The notes beneath the pieces were generated by a model that did not search any database, was not told the DNA's origin, and saw only the letters and a list, made by a program, of their open reading frames with translations. This document shows positions 3,683 to 61,582 of a stretch of DNA of 64,000 nt, one piece after another. The position numbers and the translations under genes were made by a program. Source of the DNA: Roseateles depolymerans. GTDB lineage: Bacteria; Pseudomonadota; Gammaproteobacteria; Burkholderiales; Burkholderiaceae_C. Within the stretch, counting starts at the first letter, position 1; each line of letters starts with the position of its first letter. The stretch is taken from NCBI RefSeq assembly GCF_003387155.1, contig NZ_QUMT01000005.1, forward strand, positions 1-64,000, read 5' to 3'.

Positions 3683-4222
3683 TCAGCCTTGCTGGGCCTT
3701 GGCGTAATTGGCAATGCCGTTGGTGATTTCGGCCTTGGCTTCTTCGGGGCCCTTCCAGCCCTTGACCTTGACCCACTTGCCGGCTTCCAGGTCCTTGTAG
3801 TGCTCGAAGAAATGCTGGATGGCCTTCAGGCGCATCTGGTTGATGTCTTCGGGCTTGGTCCAGTGCTCGTAGATCGGGAGGATCTTGGTGGTGGGCACGG
3901 CCAGGAGCTTGGCGTCGCCGCCGGCTTCGTCGTCCATGTCCAGCATGCCGATGGCGCGGCAGGTCACCACGACGCCGGGGGTCAGCGGGAAGGGCGTGAT
4001 CACCAGCACGTCGACCGGGTCGCCGTCGTCGGCGAGGGTCTGGGGCACGTAGCCGTAGTTGCACGGGTAGTGCATGGCCGTGGTCATGAAGCGGTCGACG
4101 AACAGGGCGCCGCTTTCCTTATCGACCTCGTACTTGATCGGATCGGCGTTCATCGGGATTTCGATGACGACGTTGAACTGTTCGGGGGCCTTGGGGCCCG
4201 GGGTGACTTTGTGCAGGCTCAT
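3683..4222 (-). CDS. ppa: inorganic pyrophosphatase, soluble family I
   Basis: Hydrolyses cytoplasmic pyrophosphate to two phosphates, pulling biosynthetic reactions forward. The 179-residue length is typical of bacterial family I enzymes. The signature DDGDPVDVL carries the metal-binding aspartates; YEVDKESG and the preceding IEIP match the conserved N-terminal active-site strands. The start [10 protein letters not shown] fits the family N-terminus; the frame stays open upstream through the repeat region but that part has no pyrophosphatase similarity. It is divergent from hppA, the membrane enzyme for the same substrate, with a structured repeat between them. Confidence 0.97.
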
Positions 4223-4365
4223 GATGGTTGGACAGCTGACGAATGGGGTAACCCCTGATTCTAGAGGCACTCTCTGACGCCTCCCTGGCTCCTCTCGCCA
4301 CTGCCCGCGCTCGCCACAGCCACAGCCATGGCCACGGCCTTCCTTCGCACCCAGCGAGCGTGGGA

Positions 4366-4562
4366 GGCAACGCTGCGGTGGCGGCCTGCCCCGGCCCCTG
4401 TCCCCGTAAGTCAAGGAAGGAATGGCCGGCGGAGCCGGACAGGAGGGACTGAGCTGGGACTTAAACAGTCCAGTGGACTGTTTATGCCTAGCGAAGGACA
4501 GGGCCACTGGCTCTGGCATGGAGGGGACAGGGGCCGGGGCAGGCCGGCACTGCAGCGTTGCC
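4366..4562 (+). repeat. structured repeat, copy 1 (core with covarying inverted-repeat arms)
   Basis: The left arm 4366-4405 and right arm 4523-4562 are inverted repeats of 40 nt with two mismatches. The 117-nt core between them begins with GTAAGT and ends with ATGGA, each directly touching an arm. Inside are three hairpins: CCGGC/GCCGG (about 4425-4437), AAACAGTCC/GGACTGTTT (4463-4483) and a weaker CAGGGCC/GGCTCTG stem with one G-T pair (about 4499-4515). The core is clearly related to the core at 61445-61555, but the arms are unrelated in sequence. It lies between the divergent genes ppa and hppA. Confidence 0.85.
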
Positions 4563-4874
4563 TGGCTCGGTCCAGGCAAGAACTGGACCGCCCGAGAGCC
4601 CCCAATCGCGAGGGGCGCCATGGCAGATGGACAGCGAGCGGTGCCTCGCCTGCGGCAGGCATTGCCGTGCTCGGCCTTCTCAGGGAAGAAGGAGAGAACC
4701 GCATTGCCACACACTGCCCCCTGCAAGCCCTGACACCCCCTTGTCCCCTCCACTGGTAAACGCCTACCCCGAACCGCCCCGCCGGATTTAGCATCGATTC
4801 ACGGCCTGTATGTGTGCTTGCGCGCAGGACCGGCGCTGTGGGCATCAGGGCGTCTCACAACAAGGAGACAACAC
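4563..4874. other. hppA upstream region, no gene seen
   Basis: There is no supportable gene here. The segment holds one small hairpin, GGTCCAG/CTGGACC (4569-4589), directly beside the repeat, and ends with the AAGGAGA ribosome-binding site of hppA at about 4862-4868. The hppA promoter should be in this stretch, but I see no convincing -35/-10 pair. Confidence 0.5.
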
Positions 4875-7100
<2,226 letters not shown>

Positions 7101-12376: not shown

Positions 12377-12453
12377 TGGTCGGGGTGGCGGGATTCGAAC
12401 TCGCGACCCCTTGCACCCCATGCAAGTGCGCTACCAGGCTGCGCTACACCCCG
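12377..12453 (-). tRNA. tRNA-Pro (anticodon GGG)
   Basis: On the minus strand a complete 77-nt cloverleaf is visible: acceptor stem CGGGGTG/CACCCCG, D arm with GCGCAGCCTGGTAGCGC, an anticodon stem CTTGC/GCAAG holding the loop ATGGGGT (anticodon GGG), the T arm with GTTCGAATC and a genome-encoded CCA. The first base is C, as in bacterial proline tRNAs. It stands alone between merR and the mla operon. Confidence 0.96.
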
Positions 12454-60950: not shown

Positions 60951-61047
60951 GAAGCCGGCAAGTGGGCCCCCTTTTGCTCCATGTCCCCCGGACCCTCCGG
61001 GTCCTCCTCCTAATACTTACGCAAAAGGGGGCCCACTTGCCGGCTTC
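60951..61047 (-). repeat. structured repeat, copy 2 (short form)
   Basis: A perfect 27-bp inverted repeat (60951-60977 with 61021-61047) encloses a 43-nt core. On the minus strand the core begins with GTAAGT, has a GGACCC/GGGTCC hairpin and ends with ATGGA next to the arm. Compared with copies 1 and 3 it lacks the central AAACAGTCC and CAGGGCC hairpins. The arms match those of copy 3 except for one base in each arm, changed in a compensating way (T-A here, C-G in copy 3). Confidence 0.88.
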
Positions 61048-61162: not shown

Positions 61163-61417
61163 TTCGGGCTACCGGGCGGCATGACAAAACTCAGCCCCCG
61201 CGAACGGAGTTCGTGGAACTGGCGCAACCGGGCCACGGAGCGTCCCCGGATGACGCCGCCGCAGAGCGCGAGGGGATATCTAGCCGTGGCGCTTCACCAG
61301 GTTGGCGAGGGTGATGAGGGGGGTTACCTGAGGCAAGGATGGATGCCGAGGACGTTCTTGGTCCCGGTCAGGCTCGCTCGATGATGGCAGGAGGACTGTG
61401 GGAAGTCCTGGGTGCGA

Positions 61418-61582
61418 GAAGCCGGCAAGCGGGCCCCCTTTTGCGTAAGTATTAGGAGGAGGCCCCGAAGGGGACGGGGGACTGAGCCCGGACACAAACA
61501 GTCCTGAGGACTGTTTGTGCCTGGCGAAGGCCAGGGCCTCTGGCCCTGGCATGGAGCAAAAGGGGGCCCGCTTGCCGGCTTC
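61418..61582 (+). repeat. structured repeat, copy 3 (long form)
   Basis: A perfect 27-bp inverted repeat (61418-61444 with 61556-61582) flanks a 111-nt core from GTAAGT to ATGGA. Hairpins: CCCC/GGGG (about 61463-61473), CACAAACAGTCC/GGACTGTTTGTG (about 61493-61519) and GCCAGGGCC/GGCCCTGGC (about 61530-61550). The core is closely related to that of copy 1 (4406-4522), where the pair beside AAAC/GTTT is T-A instead of C-G. It is inverted relative to copy 2, 370 bases away. Confidence 0.9.

Follow-up and report, generated by a model that had tools for sequence, protein, structure and literature searches.

The DNA analysed here, called the window, is a stretch of 64,000 nt from Roseateles depolymerans (contig NZ_QUMT01000005.1, positions 1 to 64,000). 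The genome that carries it is referred to as G000, and the genomes G002–G015 cited here are relatives from the same GTDB genus. The window contains three copies of a palindromic repeat: copy 1 separates two pyrophosphatase genes, and copies 2 and 3 are located between a DUF2062 gene and an ABC ATPase gene. The features are as follows:

3686..4222, minus strand: inorganic pyrophosphatase (PF00719), left neighbour of copy 1
4365..4404, plus strand: left arm of copy 1, locus-specific stem, 40 nt
4405..4449, plus strand: 5' part of the copy 1 core, C-GTAAGT-CAAGGAAGGAATGG-hairpin(4426-4438)-ACAGGAGGGAC, matching the short-form core of the family
4450..4517, plus strand: 68-nt long-form module of copy 1, with hairpins at 4463-4483 and 4499-4515
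4518..4523, plus strand: ATGGAG, 3' end of the copy 1 core
4524..4563, plus strand: right arm of copy 1
4887..7097, plus strand: H+-pyrophosphatase (PF03030), right neighbour of copy 1
12380-12453, minus strand: tRNA gene, the sole Rfam gathering-level match in the window
60951..61047, minus strand: copy 2, short form, core 60977-61021, arms of 26 nt (26/26 Watson-Crick)
61418..61443, plus strand: left arm of copy 3, 26/26 Watson-Crick with 61557-61582
61444..61482, plus strand: 5' part of the copy 3 core, of the GTAAGTATTAGGAGGAG type
61483..61550, plus strand: 68-nt module of copy 3, with the AAACAGTCC/GGACTGTTT hairpin at 61496-61516
61551..61556, plus strand: ATGGAG, 3' end of the copy 3 core
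61557..61582, plus strand: right arm of copy 3

The first-pass annotation had described copies 1 and 3 as a conserved core held between near-perfect inverted repeats of unrelated sequence, and our analysis agrees: the cores can be aligned and the arms share no sequence. The arms of copy 1 (4365-4404/4524-4563) form 38 Watson-Crick pairs, one G.T pair and one mismatch over 40 positions, around a core of 4406-4522 (119 nt with the closing pair C4405-G4523), and an inverted-repeat search allows them to be extended to 50 nt at 88% complementarity. Those of copy 3, 27 nt with the closing pair (61418-61444/61556-61582), are 100% complementary and enclose a core of 113 nt, closing pair included. The inner stems said to differ in sequence yet keep their pairing (CCGGC/GCCGG, GGACCC/GGGTCC, CCCC/GGGG) do so, and the pair next to AAAC/GTTT is indeed T-A in copy 1 and C-G in copy 3. 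The inner AAACAGTCC/GGACTGTTT hairpin pattern occurs in the window only at 4463-4483 and 61496-61516 (expected 0.00), and the plus strand folds with z-scores of -11.7 in copy 1 and -10.3 in copy 3, none of 200 shuffles being as good. Both copies belong to the less common long form, in which 68 additional nt stand ahead of ATGGAG.

The three copies belong to a large repeat family that is chromosomal and lies mostly between genes. There are about 55 copies in G000, copies 1 and 3 among them: the copy 1 core yields 44 BLAST matches in this genome at E<=10 (30 at E<1e-6), the copy 3 core 23 at E<=1, with BLAST finding the core alone in most copies, and a covariance model (R1) built from 27 short G000 copies yields 54 matches at E<=1. 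The common short form in G000 reads CGGAAGT-NAAGGAAGGAATGG-hairpin-ACAGGAGGGAC-ATGGAG, with subtypes; short-form cores span 34-76 nt and the arms have a median of 27 nt. The long form accounts for 7 copies in G000 (copy 1 and copy 3 core searches combined), and matching long-form places are found in six other genomes of the genus (G002, G003, G010, G011, G012 and G015). Three tandem copies with 146-bp spacing lie near C1:666,000 of G000. According to gene calls from an in-house caller trained on G000, none of the 55 copies in this genome overlaps a called gene, and across genomes 35 of 273 copies overlap one.

The family extends far beyond the window, a matter on which the first-pass annotation had made its reading depend. 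With its own genome counted, members are present in 15 of 16 genomes at the genus level (E<=0.01) and in 74 of 250 sampled genomes at the family level, representing 55 of 141 genera (E<=1e-4). The core pattern matched at least 120 stretches of named genomes; the matches listed come mainly from Comamonadaceae and relatives (Rhodoferax, Hydrogenophaga, Curvibacter, Rubrivivax, Ideonella, Roseateles/Paucibacter), with a smaller share from Rhodocyclaceae, Ca. Nitricoxidireducens and Ca. Luteimonas. Rhodoferax ferrireducens isolate A7 has 26 matches and a Paracidovorax wautersii MAG has 22 (E<=0.001). The class-level search with R1, a model tuned to Roseateles, found one genome besides its own among 369 (10 candidates scored per genome), and the order-level search with another covariance model (R2) found 15 of 399 genomes, own included (11 scored), counts that are no evidence of absence elsewhere. 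Plasmids gave no match to the copy 3 core and three weak matches to the short-form core, and phages gave no element match. In four loci of Ca. Nitricoxidireducens (L295, L296, L346, L348) two different elements and their linker seem, by eye, to recur as a unit.

Each copy consists of a locus-specific stem of ~27 bp (~24-30 bp), a conserved purine-rich loop and a variable capping hairpin. The self-complementarity of the arms holds in copies elsewhere: in the 27 short G000 copies 97.7% of 888 cells pair, compared with 67.3% after shuffling and 39-54% in slid structures, and double changes are seen in 29 of 33 pairs (26 of 28 stem pairs). Among 47 diverse copies 93.1% of 1078 cells are paired vs 58.3% in shuffles, and double-change cells number 337 vs 93.2; of five measures compared, the observed count of doubly changed pairs was attained in 56 of 500 shuffles and that of pair types in 7. 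The capping hairpin is poorly alignable across subtypes (71.6% of cells paired in this set). Pairs that are preserved through double substitutions more often than in shuffled and slid controls are a general mark of a structured RNA, and the covariation that the first-pass annotation proposed to look for with a covariance model proved strong in the stem and was detected inside the core as well. There, among 238 de-duplicated copies, loop pair 34-76 is A-T in 143, G-C in 94 and G-T in one, and loop pair 35-74 is G-C in 231 and C-G in 7. A purine pair of the core also covaries (A.G 122, G.A 24, A.A 10, G.G 2; Fisher p 2e-18). These three results are unforced by the search pattern, whereas that pattern, from which the larger set of 273 copies was obtained, fixes several core positions and partly forces the invariance seen at them; neither long cores nor the GCGAAGT variant are represented among the 273 copies, many of which are related to one another. 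The core could be modelled as a stem followed by a 3x3 loop (GNA/GRA), an R-Y pair, a bulged A, a G-C and a U-A pair, a purine-rich loop and the variable hairpin, where the 3x3 purine loop and the bulged A are the putative parts that complete the model. In many copies outside Roseateles the consensus NAAGGAGGAG at core positions 37-46 resembles a Shine-Dalgarno sequence, and the ACATGG in the core of such copies contains an ATG, replaced by ACG in the AGGT subtype; a role in ribosome binding is conceivable.

The arms of the 273 copies comprise 6303 Watson-Crick pairs, 383 G.T, 54 A.C and 95 other combinations. Divided by gene context, the G.T:A.C ratio is 98:7 for ++, 118:17 for --, 56:7 for +- and 40:10 for -+; an earlier set of 109 copies gave 117 G.T and 10 A.C, and the 7 long G000 copies, which are outside the 273-copy set, 9 and 0. 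An excess of G.T over A.C implies that one strand is constrained, since a role as duplex or cruciform would treat the strands alike. The constrained strand is the purine-core strand, acting either as RNA or as a particular strand of the DNA; RNA is the most likely, and a strand-specific single-stranded DNA role would yield the same excess. Folding of three other copies gave z-scores for the two strands of -9.2/-9.1, -8.6/-8.2 and -5.0/-5.3, and in each case the purine-core strand had the higher stability, though these scores fail to separate the strands.

The asymmetry weighs on an explanation that dispenses with selection on structure, namely that replication template switching between the arms (quasipalindrome correction) keeps the stems perfect. 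The stems are long, as this process would favour, and 29 of 52 double changes from one Watson-Crick pair to another, observed at sites shared between genomes (see below), are transversional, a kind of change that point mutation could reach only through a mispaired intermediate. Template switching, however, makes no distinction between the strands, and G.T is seven times as frequent as A.C; the loop covariation, including that of the purine-purine pair, needs selection. The asymmetry speaks strongly against template switching as the whole story, in which role we regard it as improbable, but it may still help to maintain the stems.

Orientation relative to genes is random: 79 of the 273 copies lie in ++ context, 74 in --, 50 in +- and 28 in -+, with one side undefined for 42. 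As a consequence, many copies would need antisense transcription. An ungapped test found no conserved promoter-like motif upstream of the elements, and the two window spacers contain no sigma-70-like site. The spacer of copy 1 has no terminator-like site, and that of copies 2 and 3 has a single one, elsewhere, at 61196-61209. Function as ordinary transcription terminators or mRNA 3' stabilisers, to which GC-rich and mostly intergenic hairpins would be suited, seems highly improbable: the window copies lack a T tract after the stem, on which ground we rejected them as intrinsic terminators, the elements show no preferred orientation, and they also occur in divergent spacers. The conserved loop nucleotides, the arbitrary helices and the lack of a fixed gene context recall a small self-cleaving ribozyme or a ligand-binding RNA, with a conserved purine core set in sequence-free helices. 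We consider this very unlikely, as the elements have no Rfam match at the gathering level anywhere in the window, and at E<=5 the 801 bases around copies 2 and 3 give only miRNA/CRISPR noise; covariation of the type that defines Rfam families is present without a relevant match. Moreover, small ribozymes are not known to need an outer stem of 24-30 bp.

Sites shared between genomes reveal how the arms change. From 33 locus pairs with shared flanks we obtained 29 distinct pairs with alignable arms and 755 position pairs (3 of 32 locus pairs, with arms less than 60% identical, were left out). At 669 position pairs both sides are the same, 55 changed on both sides and remained paired, 24 show a one-sided wobble change, and the outcome is unpaired at 7 (6 one-sided, 1 two-sided). 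The 29 include L055/L098 and L082/L229, where the spacers are the same and the element is inverted between G000 and G010, and which may each not be one insertion. Close relatives differ at about 9% of arm sites, mostly in pairs, so that "freely varying", the expression used for the arms in the first-pass annotation, overstates the case. In the spacer next to a biotin carboxylase gene (NCBIfam acetyl-CoA carboxylase biotin carboxylase subfamily, presumably the gene named propionyl-CoA carboxylase) we aligned 14 loci (L266, L269, L273, L279, L280 and others) from Rhodoferax, Hylemonella, Hydrogenophaga and other Comamonadaceae. The element is antisense to the gene in all 14, belongs mostly to one hairpin subtype, and shows 25 G.T, 3 A.C and 10 other mismatches. 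At many of these loci an inverted variant core, GCGAAGT...ACATGAGC, appears by eye to adjoin the element.

Core and arms are decoupled at single sites, and statistics across sites support the same conclusion. The copy 1 spacer carries long cores in G000 and G015, a short core of the GGAGGAG type in G010 and a short core of the GGAATGAATGG type in G009; no core was recognised in the corresponding spacer of G012. At this site G015 and G010 show 3 differences in the 37 positions of the left arm and 7 in the 37 of the right, and they carry distinct kinds of core. The stems there are imperfect, with 28 of 37 Watson-Crick pairs, 5 G.T and 4 mismatches in G015 and 32, 3 and 2, respectively, in G010. 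In the G010 spacer (L456) the left arm foot CAACGGCTTGG and sequence upstream of it form three tandem repeats before the element. At another locus (L195 in G000, L211 in G010, L101 in G015) nearly identical arms enclose cores of different types.

Over 32 pairs, the arms are nearer to the orthologue in 22, to a paralogue in 8 and tied in 2, while the cores are nearer to a paralogue in 27, to the orthologue in 2 and tied in 3, the latter test setting one orthologue against 46 paralogues and so favouring paralogues. With G010 as the reference (24 rows) the arms give 17 orthologue, 4 paralogue and 3 ties, and the cores, more weakly, 7 orthologue, 13 paralogue and 4 ties. In a sample-matched comparison the mean distance to the nearest core is 1.70 edits within G000 vs 2.72 to G010, and that to the nearest arm is 8.11 within G000 vs 6.66 to G010. 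The ATGGAG/ATGAAG end also differs between genomes (38:9 vs 13:18, p 0.0006). Arms tend to go with the locus, and cores tend to be like those elsewhere in their own genome; part of the core similarity may reflect convergence under constraint, and recombination or copying between copies could homogenise the cores. Tentatively, and with a good deal of speculation, the family might represent a kind of dispersed RNA element not recognised so far, whose two parts are inherited at different speeds. A site-private stem would evolve by paired changes, and the functional tip would be a cassette copied from other copies within the genome, possibly spread by RNA-templated or hairpin-templated core replacement. 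The genome would in this way keep dozens of similar RNA tips evolving in concert, each on a stem that marks its site like a barcode.

Bacterial palindromic repeats such as REP, ERIC and BRE are commonly viewed as remnants of mobile DNA or as terminators. The present elements are like REP/BIME/REPIN sequences with their RAYT in being dispersed intergenic palindromes and in forming inverted pairs with a short linker. They could accordingly be imagined as REP/REPIN-like palindromes mobile at the DNA level, one strand of which folds as single-stranded DNA and serves as the substrate of a transposase, whether of the tyrosine (HUH/RAYT) or another type, the structure being kept as only folded copies transpose. 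Several observations point in this direction. At two further G000 sites, G010 and G015 have short spacers without the element. One G000 copy and one G010 copy share a 137-nt stretch (flanks GGCAGTGCTCGGTGCA and GACGCGCAGTCAG) at 96% identity; they occupy the same spacer in opposite orientation, and their surroundings match only briefly and weakly that way. Judged from this ~137-nt unit, shared with arms and short flanks by differently placed copies, the arms seem to belong to the element. The first-pass annotation had offered a mobile core inserting into palindromes as one of two readings; the exchange of cores inside kept arms agrees with it, and the apparent inclusion of the arms in the unit speaks against it. 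Close pairs are predominantly back to back: among the loci fetched, rather than whole genomes, we counted 22 in '-+' arrangement, 1 '+-', 4 '--' and 4 '++'. The linker measures 39-68 nt in 20 of the 22 back-to-back pairs, and these pairs argue against a replication-strand bias. Several of their linkers resemble inverted repeats by eye.

As to a transposase, none was evident by eye among the 25 largest clusters of neighbouring proteins; the clustering did bring out the carboxylase spacer as a recurrent site. A Y1_Tnp (RAYT-like) match in G000 (C3:233742-234041, L376) has an element about 230 nt upstream, and the element is also found near the Y1 matches of G010 and G012 (L371 and L373), but not near those of G015, G009 and G008. 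A pattern scan over 16 Y1 loci, each of about 3 kb, showed the element in only 3, probably owing to one ancestral insertion. Y1_Tnp is absent at E<=1e-5 from the element-bearing genomes G226, G113 and G026, and G008 has two Y1_Tnp matches and no element at E<=0.01; RAYT is thus neither necessary nor sufficient, and we rejected dependence on it. REP/REPIN sequences have a conserved tetranucleotide tag, GTAG, at the foot of the hairpin; here, in contrast, the conserved motif is at the tip, the stem is locus-specific, and an ungapped test found no conserved flank tag outside Roseateles. Paired changes, besides, go on at shared sites. We therefore think a mobile palindrome of this kind rather unlikely to be the explanation; the first-pass annotation, too, had found the elements unlike ordinary terminators or REP elements. 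Among viral contigs, two stretches (L367/L368) of one Mu-like contig, IMGVR_UViG_3300024949_000020 (Portal_Mu), were matched, so that this contig has an element near each end. One of these adjoins a host-like gene, and we read them as host DNA beside a prophage rather than as an att site.

ERIC arms are conserved in sequence, unlike the present arms, which differ between loci. The resemblance to ERIC, which PMC3110155 also cites, lies in its being a ~127-bp imperfect palindrome in intergenic DNA. A closer relative is suggested by the Beta-proteobacterial Repeat Element (BRE) of Hot et al. 2011 (PMC3110155). That paper describes BRE as ~90 bp long (75-91 bp in Bordetella), with a conserved or partial part of 40-60 bp, usually intergenic, chromosomal and GC-rich, dispersed in several copies per genome, sometimes in tandem, and possibly mobile. 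Its hosts include Bordetella, Polaromonas, Delftia, Rhodoferax, Acidovorax and Azoarcus, with 4 copies, counted by another method, in Rhodoferax ferrireducens T118; transcripts of ~80 and ~200 nt are given for one copy, and BRE is reported there without a function. According to PMC8386462, bprJ is differentially expressed in an RNase III mutant. Size, intergenic and chromosomal position and the presence of several copies per genome fit the present family, which also occurs in R. ferrireducens, the Paracidovorax wautersii MAG and Rhodocyclaceae contigs. Matched by description and not by sequence, the present family is probably BRE; the BRE transcripts would carry over to the present copies if the two are one and the same. 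Structure, covariation, strand constraint, arm/core decoupling and the long form do not figure in the passages of PMC3110155 considered. Beyond these two papers (PMC3110155 and PMC8386462), none of those listed by our literature searches was recognisable as a description of the element.

We propose, with a probability of about 0.58, that the family is a dispersed structured-RNA element, each copy of which would encode one structured single strand, most likely RNA. This reading is favoured because the stem and loop covary, because the G.T excess is strand-specific and because paired changes occur at shared sites; on the same sequence-based grounds the "structured RNA" of the first-pass annotation, its other reading, is the best supported. 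An element would be transcribed by read-through or from an unrecognised promoter and then fold, presenting its loop to a putative RNA-binding partner, and its stem might serve as an RNase III substrate from which short RNAs are released. Spread could take place as the ~137-nt unit or as back-to-back pairs. Transcription, partner binding and RNase III processing are thus predicted steps.

Paired and strand-specific upkeep of the stem, together with a covarying loop, is the mark of a working single-stranded molecule, here at dozens of sites per genome. The partial decoupling of arms and core makes these elements a natural setting in which to study how hairpin tips recombine. If the proposed reading is confirmed, a probably known and unexplained repeat would acquire a structure and an RNA role that can be tested, and one could look for its protein partner.
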